41,665 bases of DNA, taken from positions 1 to 41,665 of the forward strand of contig DUGA01000090.1 in NCBI GenBank assembly GCA_013331615.1. The letters run 5' to 3'. The notes under the pieces are model-generated. The model had not been told where the DNA came from, did no database searches, and was given only the letters and a program-made list of their open reading frames with translations. Positions within the stretch are counted from its first letter, which is position 1. Every line of letters starts with the position of its first letter. The DNA is from Candidatus Woesearchaeota archaeon. Its GTDB lineage: Archaea; Nanobdellota; Nanobdellia; Woesearchaeales; UBA10200. Made by a program: the position numbers and the translations under genes. Positions 755 through 28,369 of this stretch are shown here, one piece after another.

Positions 755-803
755 TTTAGTTGCCTATAATCATGATAAGAAATAGTGCAAGTATTTATAA
801 CTT

Positions 804-11612: not shown

Positions 11613-13542
11613 TAAATAGCCCCCAAATCCTGAATATCATGCCGCCAACAAAGAATGCTGTTATTATTGTTCCTGCCCATATCAATGTAGCAATCTTAGA
11701 GCCGCGCTCTTTATAGAGTATCAATATTGCAGCAATGCAAGGAACAAATAAAGTAATTGAGACTAATGCAACCAAAAGCTGGATCTGTGTAAGTGCCATT
11801 CTGTAAAAGCCTGCAGCCCCAAAGTCTCTTCTTACAATGCCCATGATATAAGCTAATGCTGCCTTTTTTGGAAGACCCATCCATACAACTACAACCGGCT
11901 CTATAAGATTCTCCAAAAATTTAAGGATGCCAGTAAGCTGCAAAACTGAAATAAGAAATGCACCTATCAAAAACCATAACCCTGCTTCATACAAAAAATG
12001 TTTTGTGCGCACAAAAGTCTTCAGTATAATATTCCTTATCTGGGGAACCTGAAGTGAAGGCAAGCTTAATACTAATGAAGATGAATTACCAGGAATAAAT
12101 CTGTTCAAAACTGTGCCAAGGGCCACGAAAAATGAGACAATGATCATGACATAAGTAAGCGTGAAAAATCCTCCTGCAAATGCAATTAAAGCAGTGATCA
12201 CTGCAAGCTGCGCAGAACAAGGCACTGCAAAATTAAGCAATGCACTTGCGATTGTTTTCTCGCGTTTTGTGTTAAGCATCCTTGTGGTGATAGTTGCCAT
12301 GGTCACACAGCCAAACCCAAGAATAAGCGGAATTATTGCTTTTCCATTTAAGCCTAATCTTACAAGAAATTTGTCAATGAGAAAAGCTAATCTTGGAAGA
12401 TAGCCTGAGTCTTCCATCAGTGCAAGAAACAGATAAAAGCCGATGACAAGAGGAAGCAACAGCCCAAATACATATGCAACTGTCATGGTGAGAATGCCAA
12501 ATTCACCAGTTAAGATATTTGCAACTGCATCATTCAGCCAATTAGGTATGGAAAAAATATTGGCAATGGAATTGATAAGAAGATTTACTGATTTTTGCAC
12601 CAAAGGAACATAATAACCCTGCATAATTGTTTTTTCAGTGAAGTTTACAACTGTCTGCGCAACAAAAACGCCGATAGAGAGATACGCAAGATACAATACA
12701 CCTGCAAGAAAGAGAAATCCATAAACAGGATGAACCATAAATGATCCTAATCTTTTCTTAAAGCCGTCTTTTTTTGAGCCAGAAGCTTTTACTTTCTCTG
12801 TAATCTCATTTACGCGCCTTCTCCTCTCTGTGTAGATGATCTCAGGGGATAGGTCTGCAGGCAAAGAATATTTTTTCATTATATCTGTATCTCCTTCTAA
12901 TGCAAGCAGGAGCTCACGTCTTGTCTTGATTGCAGAAAACCCTGAATAATAGGCATTTGCAGTAGAGTAATTGAACGTATTAAAAGCACCAGATGTATTA
13001 AATTGGCAATAATTAAACAATGGCTTGGTTGATGCCTTAATAAGATTGAGGCTTTTCCTGAGCTCTGGAATTCCCTTATTTTTTATTGCAACTATCGGAA
13101 TTACTTTGACGCCAAGAAGATGTGAGAGCTTATCTAGGTCTATCTTAATTCCATGCCTCTCTACCTCATCCATAAAATTCAATGCAACAACTAATGGGAG
13201 GCCCATGTCAATAAGCTGCAAAGTCAAAAACAGCTCTCTCTCAAGATGCATTGCATTAACAACATTAAGTATCTTATCTGCTTTCAATACAATGTCTTTG
13301 GTTGTTTTTTCCTCAACATTAATGGAAGATAACCCATAAACACCTGGAGTGTCAACCACAGAATGCTCCTTATAATGCCCTTGAACAATGCTCAGTGTTG
13401 TGCCAGGATAATTTGAGACAAGAGTATAGATGCCTGTCAGAGAATGAAATACAACAGACTTTCCTGAATTAGGATTGCCTACAAGCACAATGTTTTTTTT
13501 CTTCAGCGCAAATTCTTTCTGTTCATCATGGCAGCTTGGCAT
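11602..13542 (-). CDS. feoB: Ferrous iron transporter FeoB
   Basis: 646 residues: N-terminal G-protein domain plus a polytopic membrane domain that imports Fe(II). G motifs visible: GNPNSGKS (22-29), NYPGTT (44-49), DTPG (64-67) and NFMD (122-125, for the usual NxxD). Membrane gate regions are present as GFGCVTMA and NFAVPCSAQLA, with conserved Cys. It is somewhat shorter than bacterial FeoB proteins. ATG at 13542 with GAGGGATG just upstream. It sits in a minus-strand run ftr1-feoA-feoB-Cys-rich protein, so co-expression in iron uptake is likely. Confidence 0.96.
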   Translation of the reverse strand: MPSCHDEQKEFALKKKNIVLVGNPNSGKSVVFHSLTGIYTLVSNYPGTTLSIVQGHYKEHSVVDTPGVYGLSSINVEEKTTKDIVLKADKILNVVNAMHLERELFLTLQLIDMGLPLVVALNFMDEVERHGIKIDLDKLSHLLGVKVIPIVAIKNKGIPELRKSLNLIKASTKPLFNYCQFNTSGAFNTFNYSTANAYYSGFSAIKTRRELLLALEGDTDIMKKYSLPADLSPEIIYTERRRRVNEITEKVKASGSKKDGFKKRLGSFMVHPVYGFLFLAGVLYLAYLSIGVFVAQTVVNFTEKTIMQGYYVPLVQKSVNLLINSIANIFSIPNWLNDAVANILTGEFGILTMTVAYVFGLLLPLVIGFYLFLALMEDSGYLPRLAFLIDKFLVRLGLNGKAIIPLILGFGCVTMATITTRMLNTKREKTIASALLNFAVPCSAQLAVITALIAFAGGFFTLTYVMIIVSFFVALGTVLNRFIPGNSSSLVLSLPSLQVPQIRNIILKTFVRTKHFLYEAGLWFLIGAFLISVLQLTGILKFLENLIEPVVVVWMGLPKKAALAYIMGIVRRDFGAAGFYRMALTQIQLLVALVSITLFVPCIAAILILYKERGSKIATLIWAGTIITAFFVGGMIFRIWGLFNGI

Positions 13543-13614: not shown

Positions 13615-13839
13615 TCAATTGCTGTAATGCCTCACCTCGATCTGACTCAGGTTTTTGCTGCCTAGAGCAATCTCCTGTGATTTATGCTGCAATATGAAAG
13701 GGCCGTGTGAAACTTTATGGGAGATGGTAACAACATCGCCTTCCTGGATCCCTAACTTTAAGAGGTGGATCTTTAGAGATCTGTCTTTTATCTCGACAAG
13801 CTTTACTTTTTCTGATGATGTTGTGTCTGATAATAGCAT
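13615..13839 (-). CDS. feoA: FeoA, SH3-like Feo component
   Basis: A 74-residue protein with the compact SH3-like FeoA fold: the LLKLGIQEGDVVTISHKVSHGP core and the C-terminal QEIALGSKNLSQIEV strand pattern (family: G-L..G..I......GP.......ALR...A..I.V). FeoA is a cytosolic partner thought to regulate FeoB. It ends 72 nt before feoB on the same strand. Confidence 0.92.
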   Translation of the reverse strand: MLLSDTTSSEKVKLVEIKDRSLKIHLLKLGIQEGDVVTISHKVSHGPFILQHKSQEIALGSKNLSQIEVRHYSN

Positions 13840-13920
13840 TGTGATGGATGATAAAAGAGGTTATTTTATTGATATCTATTTTGAGATTGCTACTTAAAAA
13901 GCATCTTAGTATTTAATACT

Positions 13921-14775
13921 TTATTTCACGATCTCCTCTACTTTATCTATCTTTGGCCAGAGCCTATCAATGTTGCGCCATAAGAGGACAACTAACAAGA
14001 TATATGCAAGATAGGAAATTATTTCTAGCAAACTTGGATTTCCATTGTAGCCAAAAAGATCTTTTGCCAAGCCGCCTACTGCGCCTTTCTCATGGAATGC
14101 TGGAAAGCTTCCATCTGAGTTAACTACAGGGTTTAAGTTCCAGACTTCAAATGTTGCTGGCAATAATTTTGCCTCTTCAAATTCATGGATGCCGTGAGCA
14201 ACTAAACCTGCAGCAAATAAGATCAAGAACACACTGCTGATATTAAAGAATAATTTTAACTTCACTTTCTTTGCTGCAACAAATATGATATAGCCAAGTA
14301 TGCATGCAGCAATAACCCCACTTAATCCCCATAATAATAGATTATCTCCCCCTGAGAAGCTTGATGCACCTAAGAAGATAACTGTCTCAACACCTTCTCT
14401 AAAAACCGAGAGGAAAGTTACCAAAAATAGGCCAAACTGCTGCTGTGTATTAAGATGGCGCTGCACACGATGCTCTATCTCTTTAGCAACGTTTTTCTGC
14501 CGCAACATCCATAAGATCATGCTTGTCAATAAGACAGCAGCAAATAGCATAGTAATCCCTTCAAATATCTGCTCTGCTCTTCCTTCAAAACCGCCTGCCA
14601 AAAACTGAAACAAAACTGCTGCAATTATGCTTGCAACAACTGCACAAAAGACACCGTAATAAACAACATTATTGTATTTCTGCTGCTTTGTCCTGAAAAG
14701 ATATGCGAGAATTATTCCAACTATCAATGCTGCTTCCAATGTTTCCCTGAATGTTATGATAAAGCTGGATACCAT
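13921..14775 (-). CDS. FTR1/EfeU-family iron permease
   Basis: 284 residues, about seven TM helices. It has both iron-binding signature helices: RETLE at 10-14 and REGVE at 126-130. FTR1 proteins move iron across the membrane, in partnered systems after oxidation of Fe(II) to Fe(III). No EfeO, EfeB or multicopper oxidase partner is visible here; it is instead paired with feoA and feoB. AAGGTGGT precedes the ATG, and an iron-box-like palindrome lies about 60 nt upstream at 14833-14850. Confidence 0.95.
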   Translation of the reverse strand: MVSSFIITFRETLEAALIVGIILAYLFRTKQQKYNNVVYYGVFCAVVASIIAAVLFQFLAGGFEGRAEQIFEGITMLFAAVLLTSMILWMLRQKNVAKEIEHRVQRHLNTQQQFGLFLVTFLSVFREGVETVIFLGASSFSGGDNLLLWGLSGVIAACILGYIIFVAAKKVKLKLFFNISSVFLILFAAGLVAHGIHEFEEAKLLPATFEVWNLNPVVNSDGSFPAFHEKGAVGGLAKDLFGYNGNPSLLEIISYLAYILLVVLLWRNIDRLWPKIDKVEEIVK

Positions 14776-14832: not shown

Positions 14833-14871
14833 ACTTAACTATAGTTAAGTTTTTCTTTATTTATATTTAAA
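14833..14871 (-). promoter_or_regulatory. Promoter and iron-box-like palindrome upstream of the FTR1 operon
   Basis: On the minus strand a TATA region (TTTAAATATAAATA, about 14858-14871) is followed by ACTTAACTATAGTTAAGT at 14833-14850, a perfect 18-bp palindrome. The same core stands at the same relative place in front of sufB and sufD. The site overlaps the expected transcription start, fitting a repressor. The form resembles DtxR/MntR-class operators; the regulator itself is not identified. Confidence 0.75.
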
Positions 14872-14950
14872 TGTTTCTATCGTTGCAGTGAATTACCAAC
14901 AAAAGCTTTATTTATGAACCTATATATCTATTATATAAAAAGGCATAAAC

Positions 14951-15523
14951 GTGGCATCCTATATTAAACAATTTTTACATAACCCCATAACAACAGGATC
15001 TATTACGGAATCTTCTAAAGAGCTGGCACAACTAATAGTAAAAATTTCTAATATTAAAGATGCTAGTACAATAGTCGAGTTTGGGCCTGGTGCAGGCATT
15101 TTTACAAGAGAGATAATCAAAAACATTGATGAGAGTAAGACATTTTTTGCAATTGAGTTAAATAAGGATTTTATCAAGAAATTAAGAGAAAAACTGCCAG
15201 ATGCAATTGTTTACCATGACTCTGCAGTAAACATTAAAAAGTATTTGAGAATGCATGATTTAGAAAATTGTGATCTTATTATATCTGGCCTCCCTTGGGC
15301 ATCTTTCAATACGGCTGAACAGAAAAAGATTGTCAATAAAGCAGTTCAAGCATTAAGCCCTAACGGTGAATTTCTAACTTTTGGGTATTTACATGCGACT
15401 ATTCTCCCATCTGCACAAAGATTTAAAATGCATCTCGAAAAAGAATTTTTATCAGTTAAAAGGTCAGAGATTGTATGGAAGAATATACCGCCTGCATTTA
15501 TTTATCATTGCAAAAAAGAGTGA
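14951..15523 (+). CDS. Class I SAM-dependent methyltransferase (PmtA/KsgA-like)
   Basis: 190 residues. SAM-binding motif I is FGPGAG (44-49), followed by an acidic strand end AIELN (68-72). The substrate-side motif is SGLPWASF (112-119), in the place of the NPPY-like motif of KsgA, and close to the SGLPF-type motif of phospholipid N-methyltransferases (COG3963). Substrate is therefore uncertain: lipid headgroup or another amine. The start is GTG at 14951, about 26 nt after TATATATC (14921-14928), consistent with a leaderless message. Confidence 0.75.
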   Translation: MASYIKQFLHNPITTGSITESSKELAQLIVKISNIKDASTIVEFGPGAGIFTREIIKNIDESKTFFAIELNKDFIKKLREKLPDAIVYHDSAVNIKKYLRMHDLENCDLIISGLPWASFNTAEQKKIVNKAVQALSPNGEFLTFGYLHATILPSAQRFKMHLEKEFLSVKRSEIVWKNIPPAFIYHCKKE

Positions 15524-15531
15524 AATAGATA

Positions 15532-15565
15532 TTGCAAGTCATTTGCAACAGCAAATTTATAAATA
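15532..15565 (+). promoter_or_regulatory. lonB promoter with upstream TTGCAA-N5-TTGCAA motif
   Basis: TTTATAAATA at 15556-15565 lies about 28 nt before the lonB ATG (leaderless). Just upstream, two TTGCAA boxes at 15532-15537 and 15543-15548 are separated by 5 nt; a third TTGCAA is at 15508-15513. The same doublet overlaps the start site of the cbtB operon. Here it is upstream of TATA, an activator-type position. Confidence 0.5.
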
Positions 15566-15588
15566 AAGCTGTGTTTTATCACTAAGTT

Positions 15589-17559
15589 ATGGCTAAAGGA
15601 AGAGCAGTAAAAAATCAGAGAAAGACAGAAAGAAATAAAGCAGTAACTCGAAAAGATAAGACGACAAATAAGAGTAGTAATGTTAGCCTATCTAATTTAG
15701 TTTCTGTCAATAATAGTTATAATCTCAGCTTTGAAACTACACGCGACATACAAATACCTAAAGAGACTATCTGCCAAGTCATTGGTCAGGAAGCAGCAGT
15801 TGAAGTCATAAAGAAAGCTGCATCCCAAAAAAGGCACGTATTGTTGATAGGAGAGCCTGGAACAGGCAAAAGCATGCTTGGTGCAGCATTGGCTGAATTA
15901 TTGCCAAAAGAGAACTTAAAAGATGTATTAGCTTATCCAAACCCTAATGATGAGAACAATCCAAAGATTGTAAGCACAGAAGCAGGGAAAGGCCGCGAAA
16001 TAATAACAAAAGCAAAATCATCTGGCAAAGAATTCTTTAAGAACCAGAATTTCTTTCTAGTAATATTGTTGATCTTTTCATTAGTTGCGCCATGGTGGGT
16101 AAGAACGCATTATACTGTACAGTATGGAGCAACTGTAGGCGCAATCATGTTTGCAAGCTTTTCGATCGCAAGCATGTTATTTTTAGGCGCATTCTTTATC
16201 CTTCTAAAATTGGGGAACAAACAAGAGACAAAATCTCTTGCACCAAAATTATTGGTGGATAACTTTAACAAGCAGACTGCACCATTCTATGACGGCACAG
16301 GAGCACATGCAGGCGCATTATTGGGGGATATACTTCATGATCCCTATCAATCTGGAGGTTTAGGAACTCCTGCACATGAAAGAGTTATGTCTGGATTGAT
16401 ACATAAAGCAGACCAAGGTGTTCTTTTTATTGATGAGATAGGGACATTGAATAAAGTCAGTCAGCAAGAATTATTGACTGCATTGCAAGAAGGCAGATTC
16501 CCGATCACAGGCCAGAGCGAAATTTCTGCAGGAGCAATGGTAAGGACAGATGCTGTACCCTGCAACTTTGTCTTGATAGCTGCAGGAAATTTACAAACTA
16601 TAAAGCATATGCATCCTGCATTGAGATCAAGGATAAGAGGATATGGCTACGAAGTTTACATGAATGAATCAATGCCAGATACCATTGAGAATAGAGAGAA
16701 GCTGGCTGTTTTTGTTGCGCAGGAAGTTGCTAAAGACAATCAAAACACACAGAAGATCCCTCATTTCACAAAAGATGCTGTTGATGCAATAATAGATGAA
16801 TCAAGAAAGAGAGCAAATAAAAAAGGCCATCTTACATTAAGATTGAGAGACTTAGGCGGCATAATAAGAGCAGCAGGAGATATTGCTAAGCAGGAGAATG
16901 CAGAATTTGTTTTGCGCAAGCATATTGAGAAAGCTAGAGAAATAGCAAGGACATTAGAGCATCAGATAGCTGATAGATTAATAGAAGATAAAAAGGATTA
17001 TGAAGTTATACTTACTGCAGGCAAAAAAATTGGGAGAGTAAACTGCATCGCTGTAATAGGAAGCAAGGATGTATTTTCTGGAATAATTTTACCGATTGAA
17101 GCACAGGCTATCCCTTCTGTTGGGAACTCAACTATAACGCTTACTGGCAAAGTCAGCCAGGATGACAGGGAAAGCGCAAAGAATGTAATTGCTGTAGTGG
17201 AAAATTATTTTGGATTCAGGAAAAAATATAATTTTTATGTGCAGTTTTTGCAGACATTCAAGAGCAGCGAGATAGACAGTACAAGCGCAGGGATAACTGT
17301 TGCAATAATATCTGCATTAAAGCAGAAAGCTGTAAGGCAGGATACTGCTGTTATCGGAGCTGTCTCAGTAAGGGGAGAGATCTTGCCTGTCGCCGGAGTA
17401 AGCTCAAAAGTGCATGCTGCACTGGAAGCTGGAATTTCCAGAGTAATCGTTCCAAAGAATAATGTAAATGATATCCTGCTTGATCCTGCTGACAAAGAGA
17501 AGGTTGAGATAATTAAAGCCGAGAAGATAGAGGATGTGATTAGGGAGATGGTTGGATAA
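15589..17559 (+). CDS. lonB: Archaeal Lon protease, membrane-bound LonB type
   Basis: 656 residues. ATP-dependent AAA+ serine protease for protein quality control. Walker A GEPGTGKS at 88-95; two TM helices inserted in the AAA domain (about 154-170 and 182-207), the hallmark of archaeal LonB; Walker B LFIDEIG near 278-284. The C-terminal protease domain has the Ser-Lys dyad: DSTSAG with S566 and, about 40 residues on, VAGVSSK with K607. The basic N-terminal tail (1-30) is low complexity. Complete and apparently functional. Confidence 0.96.
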   Translation: MAKGRAVKNQRKTERNKAVTRKDKTTNKSSNVSLSNLVSVNNSYNLSFETTRDIQIPKETICQVIGQEAAVEVIKKAASQKRHVLLIGEPGTGKSMLGAALAELLPKENLKDVLAYPNPNDENNPKIVSTEAGKGREIITKAKSSGKEFFKNQNFFLVILLIFSLVAPWWVRTHYTVQYGATVGAIMFASFSIASMLFLGAFFILLKLGNKQETKSLAPKLLVDNFNKQTAPFYDGTGAHAGALLGDILHDPYQSGGLGTPAHERVMSGLIHKADQGVLFIDEIGTLNKVSQQELLTALQEGRFPITGQSEISAGAMVRTDAVPCNFVLIAAGNLQTIKHMHPALRSRIRGYGYEVYMNESMPDTIENREKLAVFVAQEVAKDNQNTQKIPHFTKDAVDAIIDESRKRANKKGHLTLRLRDLGGIIRAAGDIAKQENAEFVLRKHIEKAREIARTLEHQIADRLIEDKKDYEVILTAGKKIGRVNCIAVIGSKDVFSGIILPIEAQAIPSVGNSTITLTGKVSQDDRESAKNVIAVVENYFGFRKKYNFYVQFLQTFKSSEIDSTSAGITVAIISALKQKAVRQDTAVIGAVSVRGEILPVAGVSSKVHAALEAGISRVIVPKNNVNDILLDPADKEKVEIIKAEKIEDVIREMVG

Positions 17560-17629
17560 CAATTAGGAATTTATTATTAAGCATTAAGTTAGTATTTCTT
17601 ATTATCAATAAAACACAATTTATTTGACA

Positions 17630-18724
17630 CTAATACTTATTTATCTTACCCATGACTTTTGCAGCAAACTTTTTGTTTTTTAACAATAAACCAACAATCT
17701 CATAGAAATAGTTTCTGACAAACGGACAATGAGAGAATAATTGGTAGTAATAATCTTCTTTTTTCTTTATTGCAATCAATCGCTGGATTTCAGGGCAAGT
17801 ATATTTCGGATTAACTATCTGCTTTGCTGCTTCAATGCCAGTAAGAATTGACTGATAGATGCCTTCTGCTGTTAATGAAGATGAGAAACCAGCTGCATCG
17901 CCAATCAAATAGATGTTTCCTGATTTACCAAATCTGTGACCTAAGTAGCCATAGGTTATAGTGTGCGCTTGGAATTCTTTCTCCGCAAAATTGTATTTGC
18001 TATCAAATTTTTCTTTAAACCATTGCTGAAATTTTTCTCTCATCTTTGCAGCAGGATAATACTTTTGCATTTCTGGAGCAAGATCGCATCCAGAGCCGAT
18101 TGAAGTTGTATTTGTATAAGGGAATATCCAGCCATAACCATGGCCGAATTTATTTGCATCAATAAAAAGCTCTAGGTCTTTGAAAGAATTTGAGGAGATA
18201 GGTGCGGTATTTGGGACAATATACTGGTATGCCTGGTGAAAAGCGTGGCTCTTCAATCCCAAATATGCTCTTACAACAGAAGCAGAGCCATCTCCTCCAA
18301 TCAGATACCGAAAGCTAATTTTCTTATCATCATTCTCATGTTTGTCAAATATTTTGATGGAATTTTCAGTTATTTCTGTTACATTGCATTCCGTTTTGAT
18401 AACTGCTCCAGCTTTCTTTGCCTCTCCTGCAAGATAGCTTCCAAGGGCAACTCTGGATGTTGTGTAAAGGATCGGCTCATCATGCTCGATTACAGCAGAC
18501 TGTTTTGGTGTATGGATTATTATCCTTTTGAATTCTCTTTCCATTATGCTTTTAGGAATGCCAAATTTAAAATTTTTTAATGAAATGCCGCCTGCGCAGA
18601 CTTTCTTGCCTATGATCTTTCCGCGCTCGAGAACTATTACACTCTTTCCATTTTGCGCAAGAAACTCTGCTGCCTTCAGGCTTCCAGGACCTGCGCCAAC
18701 TATCGCTACGTCGTATGATTGCAT
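17630..18724 (-). CDS. Geranylgeranyl reductase family FAD-dependent protein
   Basis: 364 residues. N-terminal dinucleotide-binding motif VGAGPGSLKAA, then CAGG, the substrate-pocket segment GYGWIFPY, and the FAD-contacting LIGDAAGFSSSLTAEGI. These are the family landmarks of archaeal geranylgeranyl reductases, which saturate the isoprenoid chains of membrane ether lipids. Some family members act on other isoprenoids. TTTTTATAATAC on the minus strand lies about 27 nt before the ATG, giving a leaderless transcript. Divergent from the HTH regulator gene. Confidence 0.88.
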   Translation of the reverse strand: MQSYDVAIVGAGPGSLKAAEFLAQNGKSVIVLERGKIIGKKVCAGGISLKNFKFGIPKSIMEREFKRIIIHTPKQSAVIEHDEPILYTTSRVALGSYLAGEAKKAGAVIKTECNVTEITENSIKIFDKHENDDKKISFRYLIGGDGSASVVRAYLGLKSHAFHQAYQYIVPNTAPISSNSFKDLELFIDANKFGHGYGWIFPYTNTTSIGSGCDLAPEMQKYYPAAKMREKFQQWFKEKFDSKYNFAEKEFQAHTITYGYLGHRFGKSGNIYLIGDAAGFSSSLTAEGIYQSILTGIEAAKQIVNPKYTCPEIQRLIAIKKKEDYYYQLFSHCPFVRNYFYEIVGLLLKNKKFAAKVMGKINKY

Positions 18725-18788
18725 GATAAGTTAAGTAGAAAGAAGTATTATAAAAAGTTGACTGGTAAATTAACTTTATAATTTGTAA

Positions 18789-18812
18789 TGTCTATACATT
18801 GTCTATACAATG
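18789..18812. promoter_or_regulatory. Direct and inverted repeats between geranylgeranyl reductase and HTH regulator
   Basis: TGTCTATACA occurs twice, at 18789-18798 and 18800-18809, one helical turn apart. The second copy is part of an imperfect palindrome CATTGT-CTAT-ACAATG (18797-18812). The site lies upstream of the TATA boxes of both divergent genes (about 18746-18756 minus; 18853-18860 plus) and could be an operator of the adjacent regulator. Confidence 0.4.
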
Positions 18813-18883
18813 CTTTAGTTCTAAATAATTTAAAAAATATTTTGCCATAATATTTATATAGGTAAGAGTTTAGTGTCAATAAT

Positions 18884-19249
18884 ATGTCAACACAGATGCC
18901 TCAGGAGATAGAAGTTTGGTATGTATTGCCAGCTATAAGAAGAGAGTTAGCTAAATCAATGATAAAAGATTACAAGCTTTCACAAAAAGAGACTTCTAAA
19001 ATCTTGAATATCACAGAATCAGCTGTTTCGCAATATGTCAAATCAAAAAGAGCAAAAGAAGTTGAGTTTAAAGGAGATGCTTCTAAGAAGATAAAGGAAG
19101 CAGCTGGAAGAATAATTGCAGACAATAAATTGCTGATGAAAGAGATCTATGATTTATCTGGTGTTGTAAAAGTCAGCAAGCTACTGTGCGAGATACATAT
19201 GCAGCATGACAAATCTGTTGCAAAAGGCTGCGATATCTGCTTAAAGTAA
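18884..19249 (+). CDS. HTH transcriptional regulator with C-terminal Cys/His tail
   Basis: 121 residues. An N-terminal XRE-like helix-turn-helix (about 13-58: LPAIRRELAKSMI, KLSQKETSKILNITESAVSQY), the type seen in archaeal COG2522 regulators and on the N-terminus of ThiN proteins. The C-terminal end LLCEIHMQHDKSVAKGCDIC gives C102, H105, H108, C116 and C119, a possible zinc or Fe-S site that could sense metal or redox state. The TTTATATA at 18853-18860 fits leaderless expression. Its target genes are not known; it is a candidate, not more, for a metal-responsive regulator. Confidence 0.75.
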   Translation: MSTQMPQEIEVWYVLPAIRRELAKSMIKDYKLSQKETSKILNITESAVSQYVKSKRAKEVEFKGDASKKIKEAAGRIIADNKLLMKEIYDLSGVVKVSKLLCEIHMQHDKSVAKGCDICLK

Positions 19250-19306
19250 ATATAGAGCATAAAATTCTTATTGATTTGGTATTTGCATAATACTAGATAT
19301 TTACGA

Positions 19307-19495
19307 AGCAGCTGCCGCAGTTGGCACTAGCATTGATTATATAAAGAGTTGCTCCTCCTCTACGCTTAAAGACTAGATGTGAAACTGGAAAAGCATTGCG
19401 TGTTGTGTTAGTAAATTAGTAACTGGACTATATTGCCGTCGCAACATTAGCTATGTTAAAGTTGATTAGTGCCAACTAAATTGGCGGCAGCTGCT
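19307..19495. repeat. Long-range inverted repeat enclosing 137 nt: structured RNA or MITE-like element
   Basis: Left arm: AGCAGCTGCCGC (19307-19318) then AGTTGGCACTA (19319-19329). Right arm: TAGTGCCAACT (19467-19477), six extra bases, then GCGGCAGCTGCT (19484-19495). All 12 + 11 bases pair perfectly around one 6-nt bulge. The interior contains smaller hairpins, such as AACAT/ATGTT at 19443-19457. It fills the gap between two convergent genes and has no convincing coding frame. No tRNA, SRP or RNase P signature is visible, and no clear target-site duplication. Confidence 0.55.
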
Positions 19496-19506
19496 ATGCA
19501 CATACA

Positions 19507-21840
19507 TTATCCTAATTTAGGAGTATTGCTAGCTGTATCCTGTTTCGCAGAAATCGTTATCTGTTGTTTTGAGCTTAAAGCATTGCATCCAACATCATTG
19601 GTATATGCTTCAAATAAGTATTCGCCTACCTGAGTATCATCTGTTGTTCCTTCGACAAAATAAGCCCCTGTCTCTGAATCTGTGAACACTTCACCAGTGC
19701 CTAAATCTTGATTATTTTTTGTGGCTTTTAAAAAGAATGCCTTTCCTTTCATGACATTATCCTTTGAGTCATAGAGATAAATCTTATAAGTAATAGGGTC
19801 ACCTGAAACATATGATTGCTTATTAAATGCAAAGTATATCTTTGCTGCGCAGTTGACGGTAGTTGTTGGAGAAGTTGGTGTTGTTGAAGTAGGTGTAGAT
19901 GGTGTTGTAGTTGTAGGCGAACTTGGCGTTGTTGCAGGTGTAGTTGGACTAGAATCTAATTTTGCAGATACAGTGATCTGTTGTTTAGCAGTTACCTGAG
20001 GGCAGTCTTCTTCCTGCGAATAAACTGTATATTCATGCTCTCCTATCACTGATTGGATAACTTCACTTTCCTCATAATAAACACCATTCTCTTCAGAGGT
20101 TTGCTTTTCAGCTTTCTGGAGCTCACCGTTATTTTGAGAGAGTGTGATGCCAAATTTCTTGCCTTTCATCGCAACATTATTCGAGTCCATCAATGCAACT
20201 TTGACTGCTATCTTATCTCCCACAATATATGCATCTTTGTTAAATGCAAAATAAATCTTTGCAGGGCAGTTTCTTATTCCAGTTACAGGTCTGCACCTTG
20301 ACGCAGAAGGATTTTTGCTGACAGACACACAGGTATAACTTGGAAACTGAGCAGAATCATAGAACTTCCCATCCTGATTGTCACATATAGATTTAGATAA
20401 AGGTGATCCACAGCCACTACCACCAATCTCACAGCAGCCTTTAAGCTCAGGAGTTACAGTTGGGGCAGATGGAGTTTCCTGCCTTCTAGAAATGGTGAGA
20501 ACTGCGCTGTCAACAACATAATCGCAGCCATCTTCTTTGATATATGCTCTATAAACATACTCACCGACAGCATCATCTTCCAATGTAGAGCCAGTATTGT
20601 AAACACCTTTTTCATCTATCTTGTATGTCTGGACACCTAGATCCTTGCCGTCTTTTGTTGCAGTTACGTAAAATTCCTTGTTAGGCAATCTGTTGTAATT
20701 TTTATCTAATGCAATAACATCGATATTTATCGAATCTCCTACTCTATATTGTTCTTTATCAAATGTCAAGTCTATCTTTGAGGCGCAGTTTCTTACACCT
20801 GTTACAGGCCTGCATCTTGACATAGGAGGAGTATTCTCAACACGTACACAGGTATAGCTTGGATGAGTAACGCTGTCATAAAATGTGCCACCGTATTTTA
20901 CACATTGTGATTTGCTCAATGAAGAGCCGCATGCTCTTGGAGGCAATTCACAGCACCCTGTAGTCTCATCAGATGCAGTAGGGAAATGAACTGAGAAATG
21001 ATTTGTAGTACTAACATGTGGACATCCATCTTCGTTCACAACTGCAACATATTCATAAACTCCTGTATCACCGTCATTTAAGACTTTTTTAGCAGAGTAT
21101 ATGCCTAAAGCATCTGTTGCAAATGATTCATCAGCTAAAGCTTTACCATCTTGATATGCCATTGCACTAAATTTTTTGTAAGGCATAAAATTGCCCTGCT
21201 TGTCTGTAACCTTAAATGTAACTGCAAATGTATCTCCGACATAATATAAGTCTTTATCATAAGAGATAGAAATTTCAGCCGGGCAGTTTTCATGCTTTTT
21301 CTCGTCGCATTTTAAGCAACTGCAGCCATTGCCTGTGCATTCGCATACATTAACTATGCCATCATCTGTATATTCGCCAAATTTTTTCTGGCAGTAATTA
21401 TGTCCGCCTATTGTCTCGCCTGGGCATTTGCAAGGATTATTAGATGATGAACTTGAAGTTGGCTGAGCAACTGCAGTATCTCTTGTCTTGCCTTCAGTAC
21501 CGAACTTTCTTACGCATTCCATCAATTGGTTTTCCATATCAAAATAAGCTATGACACTTAAGCCTGTAGAAGCGTCTTTTATCTCTGCCTTGTAAAGCTC
21601 TTTGCCTGCCTTTAGCTCTTTGCCGCAAATTTTTTGTATGTTGGTAAATTCAGCTGTTGATTCTTCTGCAGAATAATGTGTCAAAGTAAAGTCTGCGTCA
21701 GGATATTCATCTAGAAATTTTCGTATTTCAGGATCTGCTTTAAAGAAGCCTGCAGGGTTCAAAACGCCTGCACAGCCAGCTATGACTAAAACAACTATTG
21801 CTAATAGTACAAGAACTGCTAGATTGCCTCTTTTTTGCAT
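19507..21840 (-). CDS. Secreted lipoprotein with four tandem Ig-like domains
   Basis: 777 residues. Signal segment ending in the lipobox-like VIAGC (Cys23). An N-terminal PepSY-like domain (about 34-115), a Ser linker, then a Cys-rich segment (about 137-183). Four related beta-sandwich repeats start with C(P/A)(A/S)KI near residues 186, 352, 525 and 664; each has a Y-x-x-GD motif in strand 2 and GxY/GEY near the end. A second Cys-rich module (GCCE...CGS.LSKS.C...SRCRPVTG) is present twice, before repeats 2 and 3. A Thr/Pro-rich stalk precedes repeat 4. Likely surface-anchored, for adhesion or binding; ligand unknown. Confidence 0.75.
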   Translation of the reverse strand: MQKRGNLAVLVLLAIVVLVIAGCAGVLNPAGFFKADPEIRKFLDEYPDADFTLTHYSAEESTAEFTNIQKICGKELKAGKELYKAEIKDASTGLSVIAYFDMENQLMECVRKFGTEGKTRDTAVAQPTSSSSSNNPCKCPGETIGGHNYCQKKFGEYTDDGIVNVCECTGNGCSCLKCDEKKHENCPAEISISYDKDLYYVGDTFAVTFKVTDKQGNFMPYKKFSAMAYQDGKALADESFATDALGIYSAKKVLNDGDTGVYEYVAVVNEDGCPHVSTTNHFSVHFPTASDETTGCCELPPRACGSSLSKSQCVKYGGTFYDSVTHPSYTCVRVENTPPMSRCRPVTGVRNCASKIDLTFDKEQYRVGDSINIDVIALDKNYNRLPNKEFYVTATKDGKDLGVQTYKIDEKGVYNTGSTLEDDAVGEYVYRAYIKEDGCDYVVDSAVLTISRRQETPSAPTVTPELKGCCEIGGSGCGSPLSKSICDNQDGKFYDSAQFPSYTCVSVSKNPSASRCRPVTGIRNCPAKIYFAFNKDAYIVGDKIAVKVALMDSNNVAMKGKKFGITLSQNNGELQKAEKQTSEENGVYYEESEVIQSVIGEHEYTVYSQEEDCPQVTAKQQITVSAKLDSSPTTPATTPSSPTTTTPSTPTSTTPTSPTTTVNCAAKIYFAFNKQSYVSGDPITYKIYLYDSKDNVMKGKAFFLKATKNNQDLGTGEVFTDSETGAYFVEGTTDDTQVGEYLFEAYTNDVGCNALSSKQQITISAKQDTASNTPKLG

Positions 21841-21917
21841 TTTCAGTTATATTATAAAGTGATAGTATTTAAAACTTTGTCAAAAGAGATTCTTAAAAAA
21901 ACAAAAAAATATTGTCC

Positions 21918-22958
21918 TTAACTGTATTTAATAGTATAATCTCCAGATCCCTTCTCTTTCTTCAGGCAGACAAACTGTGTGCTTGATGTAGTGTCCCAAG
22001 TGACGCTTTCTGGCAATCCTGTATCTGCATCGTTAATCTTAAAAGTAGATGCTTTCTTGTCTGTCTTTTTGTAATATGTAAGATCCCATGTCTTGTCTTT
22101 GCCGCCTTCGTCATGCAATGTGAAAGAGACATCAAGCTTTTCAGTAGGAGTTACAGTTACAGTTGTTCTTCCGGGAGTTGAAAGCTTATAGCAATCCATC
22201 ATGTCATTAAAGTTCAATAATCCAGGATATTCTTTGCCTGCTTCCAGCGAAATTGCTTTTGCTGGCTTTTCGCCTGCATCTTTTCCTGCACTGCCGTCAT
22301 TTTGTTTTTTTGTCTCAAGCTGTAAGGTATATGCACCTTTGCCTTTTACTGTCATGACTGAAAAATAATAAGTGTAACTATCTTGCTCTGTGCTCATCTG
22401 GCTCCAGAAACTTTCTTCTTTCCCTACAATGCCTGAGTTAAGCTTGAATTGTGGCTGTCCTGTCGGATTTCCAACATAATAATAAGTGTAGTCCCAGGTC
22501 TTGTCTTTGCCGCCTTCGTCATGGATAAGTATCTGTGGATCTAATTCACTGACTGGAGTTAATGTTAATTTGAACCAATCACCTGCTGCTACTTTGAATT
22601 TGTAGTTGTCCACATCATCGCTCTTGTCATCAAAATCATCGTTTCTTAAAAGCGCATTATCAGTGTATTCGCCTGGCAATAATTCAACTTGGCCGTCCTG
22701 AAATTTATCTGGCGAATCGCCTGGTGAATTGCCGTCGAGTTCCTTTACTGGTGGAGGAGTTGGCTGTGAGGCAGGTGGTGGAGAAGGCTCAATTGTCTGT
22801 CCATCTGATGGTTGCAGAGGATCTTGCTGTCCAGTATCTGATGGTGTTGATACTTGTCCTGAATCTGTACCAGAAGGACCAAATTGAGGGTCGCATCCTG
22901 CCAATAATAAAAGTGCTAAGATTGTTATAGAGAAACCCAATGCTTTTTTTAGGTTCAT
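21918..22958 (-). CDS. Secreted lipoprotein with two tandem PPC-like domains
   Basis: 346 residues from the ATG at 22958, preceded by GAGGTG. Signal segment with lipobox LLLAGC, then a Pro/Ser/Gln-rich stalk (about 25-90). Two related beta-domains follow, each with the shared segment LxIHDEGGKDKTWD or LHDEGGKDKTWD about 40-50 residues in, resembling bacterial pre-peptidase C-terminal domains. No enzyme domain is attached. It is on the same strand as the Ig-repeat lipoprotein, 77 nt upstream, and divergent from sufB. Probably a surface protein of unknown binding target. Confidence 0.7.
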   Translation of the reverse strand: MNLKKALGFSITILALLLLAGCDPQFGPSGTDSGQVSTPSDTGQQDPLQPSDGQTIEPSPPPASQPTPPPVKELDGNSPGDSPDKFQDGQVELLPGEYTDNALLRNDDFDDKSDDVDNYKFKVAAGDWFKLTLTPVSELDPQILIHDEGGKDKTWDYTYYYVGNPTGQPQFKLNSGIVGKEESFWSQMSTEQDSYTYYFSVMTVKGKGAYTLQLETKKQNDGSAGKDAGEKPAKAISLEAGKEYPGLLNFNDMMDCYKLSTPGRTTVTVTPTEKLDVSFTLHDEGGKDKTWDLTYYKKTDKKASTFKINDADTGLPESVTWDTTSSTQFVCLKKEKGSGDYTIKYS

Positions 22959-23091
22959 TTCCACACCTCGTTTTGGATATTGATAGATAGTATTGATAAT
23001 TATAAATATATGTTTGATTATTTATATTTGAGAAGGCATAAGAGATATATAAAGGTTTATGCAAAATATTTCTAAGATTATTTCCGCAATA

Positions 23092-23121
23092 TTTATATAG
23101 AAAACTTAACTATCGTTAATT
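23092..23121 (+). promoter_or_regulatory. sufB promoter with iron-box-like palindrome
   Basis: TTTATATA at 23092-23099, then ACTTAACTATCGTTAATT at 23104-23121. The palindrome is near-perfect (TTAACTA/TCGTTAA, one mismatch at the centre) and shares 15 of 18 positions with the site upstream of ftr1. It overlaps the expected transcription start; a leader of about 40 nt with GAGG follows before the ATG at 23160. Confidence 0.75.
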
Positions 23122-23159
23122 CTGAGAGTAGATTTAGTTAATTTACTCGCGAGGAAAAA

Positions 23160-24614
23160 ATGTCTGAAGCTGAAACTATCCAGATACAGGAAATTGATCC
23201 TGATGCAGCTGCAAAAAAAGAACTGCATGCCATAGATTCTGCCAGAGATAGATTTGACCATAAAAATAAAGAGGATTCTACCTTTAGAGCTGATTTTGGG
23301 CTTACTAAAGAGCTTGTTGAGATGATATCTAAAGATAAGAAAGAACCTGAATGGATGCTGCAGCACAGATTAAAATGTCTTGAGCTGTTCCATAAATTAC
23401 CTTGGCCTAGTTGGGGACCTTCGCTTAAAGGACTAGATATGAGCAAAATCTCATTCTATTTAATGCCAAATGCAAAACAAAATTCAAGAGACTGGAAAGA
23501 TGTGCCAGATGACATCAAGAAAACATTTGAAAGATTAGGCATACCTGAAGCAGAGAGAAAATCTCTCGGTGGTGTAGGGGCGCAGTATGAGAGTATGGTG
23601 GTCTATCACAACCTAAAGAAAGAATTAGCTGACCAGGGAGTCATCTTTGAAGATTGTGATTATGCATTAAAACATTATCCTGAGCTGATGAAGAAATATT
23701 TTATGAAATGTGTTCCTCCTGGATTGCATAAGTTTGCTGCACTGCATGGCGCAGTCTGGAGCGGCGGAACTTTCCTTTATATCCCAAAAGGAGTTAAAGT
23801 GGAGCTTCCATTGCAGGCATACTTCAGGATGAATGCTGAGAGTTTAGGGCAGTTTGAGCATACGTTAATTGTTGTTGAAGAAGGCGCGCAAATCCATTAT
23901 ATTGAAGGATGCTCTGCACCAAGATATGATTCTAGTTCATTGCATGCTGGCTGCGTTGAAGTGTTTGTTCATAAGAATGCAAGAGCAAGATATTCAAGTA
24001 TCGAGAACTGGAGCAGAAATACTTTTAATCTTAACACTAAGAGAGCAAATGTATATAATAATGCATATATGGAATGGGTAAATGGGAATTTAGGCAGCAA
24101 TGCGACAATGCTGTACCCTTGCTCGGTATTATTAGAAGAAGGAGCAAAGACAGATTATTTAGGAGTAGCGTTTGCAGGCAAAGGACAGAACCAGGATACT
24201 GGCTGCAAAGTTTATCATCTTGCAAAAAATACTAATTCAACAATCAAAGCAAAATCAATCAGCAAAGATGGCGGAATTACAACCTATCGGGGATTGCTGA
24301 TGGTTGCAAAAGGCGCTACTGGCAGCAAAGCAAAAGTTGTATGCGATGCATTGATGCTTGATAATATTTCAAAATCTGATACTGTGCCAACTACACAAAT
24401 TCATGAAAATAGAGTTGATATCGGCCATGAAGCGACTGTTGGCAAGATAGATCCTGAACAGATATTTTATCTGATGTCTCGCGGCATTTCTGAAGAACAA
24501 GCAACACAGATGGTAGTTGCTGGTTTTATTGAGCCGATTGTTAAAGAGCTTCCGCTTGAGTATGCTATTGAGCTTAATAGATTGATACAGCTTGAAATGG
24601 AAGGGATGGGGTAA
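23160..24614 (+). CDS. sufB: Fe-S cluster assembly scaffold SufB
   Basis: 484 residues, full length. SufB forms the SufBC2D complex, on which Fe-S clusters are built. Landmarks: WMLQHRLKCLELFHKLPWPSWGP near the N-terminus, the beta-helix core with QFEHTLIVVEEGA, and the C-terminal GHEATVGKIDPEQIFYLMSRGISEEQA (about 421-447) with the conserved His-Glu pair used at the SufB-SufD interface. First gene of the suf cluster, preceded by the iron-box-like site. Confidence 0.96.
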   Translation: MSEAETIQIQEIDPDAAAKKELHAIDSARDRFDHKNKEDSTFRADFGLTKELVEMISKDKKEPEWMLQHRLKCLELFHKLPWPSWGPSLKGLDMSKISFYLMPNAKQNSRDWKDVPDDIKKTFERLGIPEAERKSLGGVGAQYESMVVYHNLKKELADQGVIFEDCDYALKHYPELMKKYFMKCVPPGLHKFAALHGAVWSGGTFLYIPKGVKVELPLQAYFRMNAESLGQFEHTLIVVEEGAQIHYIEGCSAPRYDSSSLHAGCVEVFVHKNARARYSSIENWSRNTFNLNTKRANVYNNAYMEWVNGNLGSNATMLYPCSVLLEEGAKTDYLGVAFAGKGQNQDTGCKVYHLAKNTNSTIKAKSISKDGGITTYRGLLMVAKGATGSKAKVVCDALMLDNISKSDTVPTTQIHENRVDIGHEATVGKIDPEQIFYLMSRGISEEQATQMVVAGFIEPIVKELPLEYAIELNRLIQLEMEGMG

Positions 24615-24730
24615 AAGGTTCTTGATTTACTAAAGTATTACCCATACAATTTCTAGTTAGATGATATCTTTAGATAATAGACGATAAAAATAGGATAACC
24701 TTTAAAAAAAGACGAGCTTTAATCTTAAAA

Positions 24731-25072
24731 ATGGACGAGGCATCTCAACAGATAGGAGAAGGTAAAAGTGATTTGGAAATTGCACTAGAGATTGCAAAAG
24801 AAGAGTTCTTAGATAAGCTTGGAAAAGTTGTTTATTACATAACTAAAACTGGTTGACGAATCGGTTGACGCAAGAGTTGACGCAAATATTTTTAAAAAAA
24901 CTTCTGAAATATTAAAAAGTTAAGCGAGGTTTTCACATTAAGGCAGAGCATCGGCTATAGGTTAACTCTTAAACATAATGAGAAGAGCAAGGAAGAAGCG
25001 GAAAAGACTTTTAATGAGATAGTACAGCCGTTTTTTGAGGGAGTTGATGAGCTTGCAAAGAACATTGAATAG
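24731..25072 (+). pseudogene. Small gene split by two compensating frameshifts inside the suf cluster
   Basis: Three overlapping pieces read as one protein of about 113 residues. Piece 1: ATG 24731 to TGA 24856, 41 residues. Piece 2: +1 frame, 24843-24923, with VDES-VDAR-VDAN. Piece 3: back in frame 1, 24908-25072, with FTLRQSIGYRLTLKHNEKS and ending ELAKNIE. The shifts fall at A-runs (24845-24848 and 24914-24918). CCTTTAAAAA about 26 nt before the ATG gives it its own promoter. No family recognised; charged and helical. Either decayed or mis-assembled. The rest of the 552-nt gap between sufB and sufD holds only promoter sequence. Confidence 0.5.
24851..24886 (+). repeat. Three 12-bp direct repeats (GTTGACG core)
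   Basis: GGTTGACGAATC, GGTTGACGCAAG and AGTTGACGCAAA lie head to tail with 12-nt period. In one frame they encode VDES-VDAR-VDAN. They are within the frameshifted small gene. Confidence 0.75.
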
Positions 25073-25132
25073 AAGTAGTTAATACTTTATTTTCCTATTA
25101 CCACCTATTTCTCCTCTTATTTTTCCATTACA

Positions 25133-25163
25133 TTTATATATAAAAACTTAACTATAGTTAATT
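25133..25163 (+). promoter_or_regulatory. sufD promoter with iron-box-like palindrome
   Basis: TTTATATATA at 25133-25142, then ACTTAACTATAGTTAATT at 25146-25163, differing from the perfect ftr1 palindrome only near its last bases. The sequence from TATA through TTCTGA is nearly the same as at sufB. The ATG at 25167 comes 3 nt after the site, so the transcript is probably leaderless and the operator covers the start. Confidence 0.75.
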
Positions 25164-25166
25164 CTG

Positions 25167-26561
25167 ATGATAGCAAAAACTGAAACACTAAATACAGAAC
25201 TGAAAAAGACTGTACCAAGGAAAACATTCCCAAACATAACTGAAGACCTAATTAGAGATATTTCCAAAGCAAGAGATGAACCGAAATGGTTACTTGATAA
25301 AAGACTATCTGCATTAAAGCTGTTCAATGAATCAGCAATGCCTGATTTCAAGTATGGCATTACAGTCAAGATGAATGCTGTCGAATTGGATTACAATAAA
25401 CTTGAGGTAGATTCATTATTGCAGAAAAAGAGTATTGAGATTGAAAAGAAAAGATTGGAAGAATATGTCAAGCAAGGAATTATCATCCTAGACTTTTACG
25501 AAGCGCTCAAGCAAAAGAAGTATGAAGAGCTGATCAAGAAATATTTTATGACAGAATGCGTAAAAGCAAAAGACAAGATAGTCGCATTGCATGCAGCATT
25601 ATTTTCTCGCGGTTTGCTGATTTATATACCAAAAGGAAAGCAGATTAATGGCACAGTAGAAATTGATTTTGAGGTTGATAACTCATTAAATTTTGACAAT
25701 ATACTGGTTATAGGAGAGGAAAACTCTAAAGCAACCATAGTTGAGAATATTTTCGCAGCAGATAATAAAAGCAAAATAAATAATAAAGAGCATGCTAATA
25801 ATAAGAATATTGACAAGGACAATAATAATAATAATAATGAAACCCATAATTTATTACAATACAGAAGCTCAGTAGTTGAGATAATTGCAAACCCATCAAG
25901 CAATCTGATTTTCTGCAGTGTCCAGAATTTAAACAGAGAGACATTTAATTTCAGCTTTAAGACTGCAATCATCGAAAAAGATGCAGTATTCAACTGGGTT
26001 GATGCGTGTATGGGAAGCAAATTTTCTCATGCAGAGACAACTTCATTGATGAAAGGAGCTGGCTCAAGAACAAATAACTGGGGAATGTTTTTGGCAGATA
26101 AAGAGCAGCAGTTTGGCATCCATGCAAATACAATCCATTTTACACACAATACTATTTCAGATATGTTAACAAGAGGTATAATTGCAGACAAAGCAAAAAC
26201 CATATACCAAGGCCTGATCCATATACAGCAGCCTGCAGGGCAGAGCAATGGATATCAAAGGGCAGATGCAATATTGATGTCAGATACTGCAGAAGCAGAT
26301 GTTATCCCAATGCTTGAGATAGATAACAGCGATGTTCGCTGCACTCATGGCTCAACAGTTGGGCAGATAGATAAAGAGAAATTATTTTATCTGATGGCAC
26401 GTGGAATGGATGAGGAAACTGCAAGAAAAGAATTAATCAGAGGCTTTTATGAGCAGATGCTTGCAAGGATCAATATCAAAGAGTTAACTGGTATTTTGCG
26501 TGCAATCATCTATGAAAGATTAGGGATTGAGCAAGAGAGCATAATTAATATTGATAAATAA
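25167..26561 (+). CDS. sufD: SufD-like paralogue of SufB
   Basis: 464 residues of the SufB/SufD family. The N-terminal PKWLLDKRLSALKLFNES block parallels SufB, and the C-terminal CTHGSTVGQIDKEKLFYLMARGMDEETARKEL region keeps the conserved His of SufD proteins. It lacks the long SufB N-terminal insertions. An insert of about 30 residues rich in Asn and Lys (about 197-230) interrupts the beta-helix core and looks like a loop expansion. Partners with SufB and SufC. Identification as SufD rather than a second SufB rests on length and the C-terminus. Confidence 0.85.
   Translation: MIAKTETLNTELKKTVPRKTFPNITEDLIRDISKARDEPKWLLDKRLSALKLFNESAMPDFKYGITVKMNAVELDYNKLEVDSLLQKKSIEIEKKRLEEYVKQGIIILDFYEALKQKKYEELIKKYFMTECVKAKDKIVALHAALFSRGLLIYIPKGKQINGTVEIDFEVDNSLNFDNILVIGEENSKATIVENIFAADNKSKINNKEHANNKNIDKDNNNNNNETHNLLQYRSSVVEIIANPSSNLIFCSVQNLNRETFNFSFKTAIIEKDAVFNWVDACMGSKFSHAETTSLMKGAGSRTNNWGMFLADKEQQFGIHANTIHFTHNTISDMLTRGIIADKAKTIYQGLIHIQQPAGQSNGYQRADAILMSDTAEADVIPMLEIDNSDVRCTHGSTVGQIDKEKLFYLMARGMDEETARKELIRGFYEQMLARINIKELTGILRAIIYERLGIEQESIINIDK
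25821..25838 (+). repeat. AAT microsatellite inside sufD
   Basis: Six AAT units in a row encode consecutive Asn residues within the Asn/Lys-rich loop. Slippage here changes Asn number in-frame. Confidence 0.8.
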
Positions 26562-26594
26562 TTATTAATAGTTACAAGATGATAGTTGATAAAA

Positions 26595-27881
26595 ATGGCT
26601 GCATACAATGTTGATAAAATAAGAGAAGATTTCCAAATTCTGAATGTCAAGGTACATGGCAAGCCATTGGTTTATCTGGATAATGCTGCAACATCGCAGA
26701 AACCTAAACAAGTCATAGATGCAGAAAAAGAGTATTATGAGACAATAAACTCAAACATACATCGCGGAGTGCATAAGCTAAGCGAAGATGCAAGTGCAGG
26801 ATATGAAGAAGCGCATGAGAAGGTTGCTGATTTTATCGGCGCAAAAGAATTTGAAGAGATAATTTTTACAAGAAATGCAACTGAGTCATTGAATCTGTTG
26901 GCATATAGCTTGTGTAATTCTTTAAAAGAAGGCGATGAGATATTAATAACGCAGGCAGAGCATCATGCTAATTTTGTCCCTTGGCAGCAGCTTGCTAAAC
27001 AGAAGAGATTAAAACTAAAGTTTGCAAAGGTAAATCTAGATTCTAAAGATAAAGAGAATTTCGGAACATTGGATGTTTCACAATTTAATGAGCTTGTTAC
27101 TAGCAAAACAAAGATTGTTTCTGTTACGCAGATGGGAAATGTGCTTGGAACTACAAATGATGTTAGAGAGATTGGGAGAATAGTGCATGAGAATAATCCT
27201 TCTGCACTGTTTATTGTTGATGGCGCGCAGAGTGTTGCACATAGTAAAATAGACGTCAAAAAGCTTGATTGTGATTTTCTTACGTTTTCCGGACATAAGA
27301 TGCTTGCTCCTACAGGAATAGGCGTGCTTTACGGCAAAAAGAATCTGCTTGAGCAGATGAGACCATTCATGTACGGCGGAGATATGATCAGGAAAGTAAC
27401 ATTTGATGATACATCATATAATGATCTTCCTTGGAAGTTTGAAGCAGGCACACCAAATATTGCAGGAGGAATTACGCTAGGAACAGCGATAGATTATCTG
27501 CTGAAAGTTGGAATGGAGAATATTTTTGCGCATGAGCAAGAATTAACTGAATACGCATTAAAAAGATTAGCTGAATTTGATGATGTAACAATTTATGGGC
27601 CAAGTAAAATTGATAACAATAAGAATAACGAAAATAAAATATTAAATGATAGGACAGGAATAATCTCATTCAATATTGATAAAATACATGCGCATGATGT
27701 TGCAAGCATATTTGATCAGCATGGAATAGCAATCAGAGGAGGGCATCACTGTGCAATGCCATTGATGGGATTATTAGATGTTGCAGGAACTGCAAGGATC
27801 AGCTTTTACCTTTACAATAAGAAAGAGGAAGTTGATAAGGCAATTGATGCGATTGAGCATGTGAAGAAGATATTTGCGTAA
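26595..27881 (+). CDS. sufS: Cysteine desulfurase SufS
   Basis: 428 residues, PLP-dependent class V aminotransferase fold. Removes sulfur from cysteine and passes it on for Fe-S assembly. YLDNAATSQKP near the N-terminus, AEHHANFVPW, PLP-binding K235 in FSGHKML, and catalytic C386 in RGGHHCAMPLM, the SufS-type context. The ATG at 26595 is preferred over an upstream TTG at 26586. It starts 33 nt after sufD. Confidence 0.96.
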   Translation: MAAYNVDKIREDFQILNVKVHGKPLVYLDNAATSQKPKQVIDAEKEYYETINSNIHRGVHKLSEDASAGYEEAHEKVADFIGAKEFEEIIFTRNATESLNLLAYSLCNSLKEGDEILITQAEHHANFVPWQQLAKQKRLKLKFAKVNLDSKDKENFGTLDVSQFNELVTSKTKIVSVTQMGNVLGTTNDVREIGRIVHENNPSALFIVDGAQSVAHSKIDVKKLDCDFLTFSGHKMLAPTGIGVLYGKKNLLEQMRPFMYGGDMIRKVTFDDTSYNDLPWKFEAGTPNIAGGITLGTAIDYLLKVGMENIFAHEQELTEYALKRLAEFDDVTIYGPSKIDNNKNNENKILNDRTGIISFNIDKIHAHDVASIFDQHGIAIRGGHHCAMPLMGLLDVAGTARISFYLYNKKEEVDKAIDAIEHVKKIFA

Positions 27882-28356: not shown

Positions 28357-28369
28357 GAGTGAGGTAAAA

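Follow-up and report, generated by a model that had tools for sequence, protein, structure and literature searches.

A palindrome-marked iron and iron-sulfur regulon in a woesearchaeal genome and its candidate helix-turn-helix regulator

The locus and its three palindromes

The DNA considered here, henceforth the window, is a stretch of 41,665 nucleotides (nt) from a Candidatus Woesearchaeota archaeon (contig DUGA01000090.1 of assembly GCA_013331615.1). It is contig C52 of a genome, G000, that comprises 1.54 Mb and is 64% complete. The window harbours genes for the import of iron and for the assembly of iron-sulfur (Fe-S) clusters, and three of their promoters share a palindrome that marks a real iron/Fe-S regulon. 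A small helix-turn-helix (HTH) protein encoded in the same window is the candidate regulator. The iron and Fe-S genes and their promoter elements are the following:

11602-13542, minus strand: FeoB ferrous iron transporter (Pfam PF02421, E=1.9e-49; TIGR00437 over cut-off)
13655-13842, minus strand: FeoA, ends approximate (Pfam PF04023, E=5.6e-8)
13921-14775, minus strand: FTR1/EfeU-family iron permease of 284 amino acids (aa) (Pfam PF03239, E=1e-48)
14833-14850, no strand: perfect, operator-like palindrome ACTTAACTATAGTTAAGT in the promoter of the minus-strand genes FTR1-feoA-feoB, 59 nt before the FTR1 ATG; kept at the FTR1 promoters of relatives
14862-14871 (read 14871-14862), minus strand: putative TATA-like box TTTAAATATA of the FTR1 promoter, assigned from the sequence
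23092-23099, plus strand: TATA-like box TTTATATA of the sufB promoter, read from the sequence
23104-23121, no strand: palindrome ACTTAACTATCGTTAATT in the sufB promoter, 40 nt before the ATG; the same site lies upstream of sufB in G002, a genome of the same genus
23160-24614, plus strand: SufB (Pfam PF01458, SufBD core, E=2e-84)
25133-25142, plus strand: TATA-like box TTTATATATA of the sufD promoter, read from the sequence
25146-25163, no strand: palindrome ACTTAACTATAGTTAATT in the sufD promoter, after the TATA box; the sufD ATG starts at 25167
25167-26561, plus strand: SufD (Pfam PF01458, SufBD core, E=3.4e-64)
26586-27881, plus strand: SufS cysteine desulfurase, a class-V aminotransferase (Pfam PF00266, E=3.5e-145), probably co-transcribed with sufD
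27940-28356, plus strand: SufU (NifU_N; Pfam/NCBIfam)
28346-29137, plus strand: SufC (NCBIfam TIGR01978, E=3.5e-99)

An initial annotation of the sequence had described three near-identical, TATA-adjacent palindromes on iron-import and Fe-S genes. The description is correct. The palindrome ACTTAACTATMGTTAAKT is found at 14833-14850, 23104-23121 and 25146-25163, with positions and letters verified, and Pfam and NCBIfam confirm the identities of the genes. At each of the three promoters (FTR1-feoA-feoB, sufB and sufD-S-U-C) the palindrome sits a few bases past the TATA-like box, between this box and the expected start site. From what is known of archaeal promoter anatomy, a protein bound there is expected to obstruct TBP, TFB or RNA polymerase. 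Scanning the window for the palindrome with up to 3 mismatches yielded 7 strand-matches, six of which are the three palindromes counted on both strands; dinucleotide shuffles predict 0.18, and none of 100 shuffles of the window attained 7.

Sites in the genome and in related archaea

In the whole genome, TTAACNATNGTTAA has only 7 sites; the reversed control pattern has none. One of the sites lies upstream of sodN, the gene of a Ni superoxide dismutase (PF09055, 4e-42), another directly ahead of the start codon (ATG) for a cysteine-rich protein of 138 aa. The latter shows a weak match to DUF1636 only, and to call it [2Fe-2S] thioredoxin-like is a guess. This sodN (L004:918-1448, minus strand), in a Woesearchaeota-type genome, is followed by a signal-peptidase-like gene (579-884, minus strand) that weakly resembles the maturation protease of NiSOD. 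A further exact palindrome, L005:1307-1320, falls just beyond the end of a TYW1-like radical-SAM gene. Non-palindromic matches of the 18-mer with 3 mismatches (on contigs C3, C4, C72, C78, C90 and C94, and at position 141 of the window) were set aside as chance.

When relatives were searched for the palindrome, the neighbouring genes were FTR1, SufB, NiSOD, Fe/Mn-superoxide dismutase (Fe/Mn-SOD), MsrBA and fusions of DUF1858 with A-type carriers. In related DPANN archaea the site precedes FTR1, SufB, SufC, IscS, A-type carriers, superoxide dismutases, MsrBA and ferredoxins. Within 300 nt, the site is present with one mismatch or none in 16 of 30 FTR1 promoters; in genomes that encode the candidate regulator introduced below the figure is 14 of 23, plus one symmetric variant.

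The targets were read from the genes at 130 different sites of the loci retrieved, and Pfam families were tallied over 101 candidate target open reading frames (ORFs), some of which are not targets, since both flanks were counted where genes diverge. The tally gave DUF1858 12, Fe-S_biosyn 10, Fe/Mn-SOD 7, SufBD 6-7, FTR1 6, radical SAM 4, DoxX 4, Lrp-type regulators 2-3, and NiSOD, TYW1, hemerythrin and 4Fe-4S ferredoxin 2 each; enrichment was judged by how rare these families are, not against a matched set of ORFs next to control-pattern sites. The initial annotation had postulated a shared iron/Fe-S regulon, and this is now strongly supported: the same palindrome recurs in other genomes with the same gene classes at the same promoter position. 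Here as in the relatives, iron and Fe-S genes are preceded by the site.

Some of the targets deserve mention on their own account. Once the autoregulatory sites are set aside, DUF1858 fused to an A-type Fe-S carrier domain (HesB/IscA) is the target family met most often in the order, with 10-12 of the 101 ORFs (e.g., L050:1883-2461, L039, L040, L275, L310, L314, L322). In one family, regulators of the Lrp/AsnC type stand directly behind palindromes (L303, L315, L319), in L315 and L319 near FTR1. Membrane proteins of the DoxX family recur just behind the palindrome (L295, L296, L300, L332).

A candidate regulator and its rivals

In three relatives a gene for an HTH protein of 117-119 aa lies beside the palindrome, in two of them with IscS directly behind it. 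A profile built from these three proteins, A1, matches 131 of 241 genomes of the order, nearly always with one copy per genome. In the own genome it matches an ORF of the window, located between FTR1 and sufB. The initial annotation had stated that the regulator is absent from the window. This is probably wrong, as the best candidate is encoded there:

18884-19249, plus strand: candidate regulator, an XRE-like HTH protein of 121 aa (profile E=2.4e-37); HTH helices at about residues 34-41 and 45-52; C102-x2-H105...C116-x2-C119
19187-19240, plus strand: codons of the Cys3His residues C102, H105, C116 and C119, conserved in about 99 homologues

The four residues are highly conserved: C102 in 100% of the homologues, H105 in 88% (Cys in 10%), C116 in 99% and C119 in 98%. 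AlphaFold2, run with 68 sequences derived from the window and the loci, predicts with confidence an all-helical protein (pLDDT 89, pTM 0.83), in which the HTH spans roughly residues 34-52 and the C-terminal part, likewise helical, bears C102, H105, C116 and C119. A Pfam scan of the window protein and two homologues revealed HTH_3/HTH_24, and neither an Rrf2 nor a DeoR match. HTH_3 (PF01381) scores 34.4 bits in a homologue, which is above the curated cut-off of 23, and 18.8 bits in the window protein itself, which is under it. The window protein alone found no match in a sequence search of the PDB; a profile search there covered the HTH part only and aligned it to the lambda-repressor-like chain 28tn. 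A fold search of the PDB with the model gave no match at E <= 0.001, and for the C-terminal Cys3His part neither sequence nor fold comparison with the PDB yielded a confident counterpart. The protein thus shares its HTH part with the XRE/lambda-repressor-like family, from which it differs by this C-terminal part. The family may also be similar to COG2522 and to ThiR in its HTH part. A copy of the regulator with 93% identity is found in Ca. Woesearchaeota RIFCSPHIGHO2_02_FULL_37_9.

What ties this protein to the palindrome is, first of all, the promoter of its own gene. An exact TTAAC-N4-GTTAA lies within 150 nt upstream in 58 of the 99 homologues with a definable start, as compared to 0.1 expected from shuffles; with one mismatch allowed, the numbers are 75 of 99 and 1.55. 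Several further promoters bear the symmetric variant TTCAC-N4-GTGAA. The spacer, on which the search placed no constraint, reads NATN in each of the 64 sites. A partly overlapping set of 80 loci taken from named genomes gives the same picture: 52 have an exact upstream site and 63 one within one mismatch, and their records are titled Woese-, Pace-, Nano-, Aenigm- and Nanohalarchaeota. Moreover, 39 of 67 autoregulatory sites begin 0-7 nt past a TATA-like element, where about 4 are expected, a position that supports repression. Fe-S assembly genes (SufB, IscS, SufU, SufC) occur within about 1.5 kb of 91 of 110 homologues and nearly always share their strand, and 70 of the 80 named-genome loci lie within 3 kb of suf/isc genes.

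Motif and protein also occur together. The 131 genomes with the protein contain 246 sites, versus 23 of the control pattern; the 110 genomes without it contain 30 versus 24. Over the 241 genomes, which cover about 88 family-level groups, the odds ratio is 20.6 with p = 2.6e-24 (Fisher), a value that overstates independence because the genomes are related. An origin of the palindromes in chance AT-rich sequence may be considered, given that the genome is AT-rich and that one of its seven sites lies within a coding sequence; it is, however, refuted by the controls, the count of zero in the own genome and the 23 against 246 in regulator-positive genomes, and its probability is practically nil.

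Could the palindrome mark the suf/isc promoters for some other factor, with the HTH gene as a mere passenger of the operon? The gene usually resides inside the suf/isc operon, so that its promoter is the operon promoter. Yet the motif is present in 38 of 49 genomes that have the protein and lack SufBD, and in merely 10 of 47 with the reverse constellation. It thus tracks the HTH protein, not SufBD as such, and the passenger role is improbable.

The initial annotation had favoured an operator of the DtxR/MntR class. DtxR/MntR regulons likewise have palindromic operators at promoters for iron import, DtxR is widespread among archaea, targets in iron uptake would suit such a repressor, and in some relatives a DtxR gene adjoins FTR1. 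In the own genome and its genus (G000, G001, G002), however, a search with PF02742 detected no DtxR-type protein, these genomes being 64-76% complete; the single match to PF01325 is an HTH-nucleotidyltransferase protein. The motif is independent of DtxR: PF02742 occurs in 55 of the 241 genomes and shows no association with it (odds ratio 1.09, p 0.88). In the four genomes with a DtxR gene adjacent to FTR1 whose FTR1 promoter was scanned (G112, G010, G072, G190), this promoter is devoid of the palindrome. A protein of this family is thus very unlikely to bind the palindrome, and the annotation fails in this respect. The distribution rather suggests that DtxR is an alternative regulator of FTR1 in relatives, i.e., that regulators were swapped at this gene. 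DtxR-type genes are found immediately beside FTR1 also in G031 and G235, the scan having covered the four genomes named above.

The search for a DtxR/MntR or Fur gene that the annotation had recommended did reveal a Fur homologue in the own genome (C90:3875-4222, minus strand; L404 ~1488-1856; 102.7 bits). In bacteria, iron and suf genes are under the control of Fur, and a real homologue is at hand. Nevertheless, Fur shows no association with the motif over the 241 genomes (odds ratio 1.10, p 0.78), and many motif-rich genomes, such as G011 and G028, do not have it. In the upstream sequence of fur that was inspected, no palindrome site was seen. We give Fur as the binding protein as little credit as DtxR.

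Proposed function and relation to known regulators

Computation shows that the regulon exists, that it is conserved and that motif and protein are linked. The best overall explanation, which we consider quite probable, is that the HTH protein encoded at 18884-19249 is a repressor acting at TTAAC-NATN-GTTAA, its predicted operator, and senses Fe-S clusters by its Cys3His residues; from the sequences we infer binding, repression and the signal sensed. A homodimer would block transcription from the FTR1-feo, sufB, sufD-S-U-C and sodN promoters by binding in the stretch from TATA box to start site. The C-terminal Cys3His would hold a labile Fe-S cluster or, less likely, iron or zinc. Scarcity of iron, a high demand for Fe-S clusters or destruction of the cluster by oxidants would lift the repression, and iron import, Fe-S assembly and superoxide defence would rise jointly. 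A candidate target DNA for the purified regulator is TTAACTATAGTTAA.

Several observations weigh against this explanation. In the window's own genus the regulator gene stands alone and its promoter has no site, while sufB and sufD carry their own; the link between protein and motif there rests on the relatives. With a genome that is 64% complete, another regulator could be missing. Fourteen of the 30 FTR1 promoters have no site with up to one mismatch within 300 nt; some of these show a site farther upstream, a symmetric variant or an adjoining DtxR. In the genome, the site L005:1307-1320 (C45) lies 115 nt before the gene of a repeat-containing lipoprotein without assigned function, and the exact site L415:1501-1514 (C50:29523) falls within the coding sequence of a proteasome alpha-subunit, there probably by chance. 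The relatedness of the genomes behind the Fisher test belongs here, too. Finally, C-x2-H...C-x2-C also fits a zinc site, possibly a structural one. The HTH protein may, then, bind the palindrome but sense zinc, ferrous iron or redox state, or its Cys motif may be purely structural. The replacement of His by Cys in 10% of the homologues is compatible with that, and FTR1 and superoxide dismutase as targets would suit a sensor of iron or redox state. The commonest neighbours and targets, however, are Fe-S assembly genes, as with the cluster-sensing IscR and SufR, and we regard this alternative as possible, though rather unlikely.

Most likely, by analogy, the protein is an Fe-S-sensing (or metal-sensing) repressor comparable to IscR and SufR. 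The cluster of IscR is bound by Cys92, Cys98, Cys104 and His107 (PMC8593673). The residue types are the same in the candidate, whose cluster binding is predicted, whereas its spacing, C-x2-H...C-x2-C, differs. Like IscR, the candidate would govern Fe-S assembly, iron and oxidative genes (PMC8593673), and in most relatives, not in the window's own genus, its gene is the first of an isc/suf operon, with autoregulation predicted. IscR, however, is a bacterial Rrf2 protein; the candidate is archaeal, has an unrelated fold and recognizes, as predicted, a palindrome of its own. Only 5 of 641 Rrf2 proteins were archaeal in one survey (PMC9973013).

SufR, of the DeoR family, represses the suf operon and its own gene in cyanobacteria and actinobacteria and combines an N-terminal HTH with C-terminal cysteines (PMC8593673). 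The candidate shares this architecture and, by prediction, these targets, yet SufR is of the DeoR type and binds [4Fe-4S] by C-x12-C-x13-C-x14-C, in contrast to the Cys3His of a 121-aa XRE-like protein. RisR, an Rrf2 protein of Myxococcus, is encoded upstream of the suf operon, has a palindromic operator and senses Fe-S (PMC9973013). All this resembles the candidate, whose sensing is predicted; family and operator (GAC-N7-GTC) are different.

Fe-S-sensing regulators of suf and isc genes are therefore of a known kind, as IscR, SufR and RisR demonstrate, and what distinguishes the candidate is its protein family, its operator and its domain of life. Regulators of Fe-S assembly have been described for bacteria, the Rrf2 survey listing few archaeal members (PMC9973013). 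Our search, which covered open-access literature, found no description of this regulator family and no equivalent regulator named for DPANN archaea. Provisionally, the family appears to be an undescribed archaeal counterpart of IscR and SufR. We lean, by a small degree only, to a broader view: a family of XRE-type Fe-S-cluster repressors extending across DPANN phyla may be their main regulator of Fe-S, iron and oxidative stress, the solution of IscR and SufR having been reached independently on another fold.

A protein, its exact operator and a list of targets are now paired and can be read in hundreds of genomes. The coupling of Fe-S assembly to iron and oxidants in these archaea thereby becomes directly testable in vitro, and a family of unannotated small HTH proteins could be named by function. 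The pairing suggests convergent evolution of a Cys3His regulator heading isc/suf operons.

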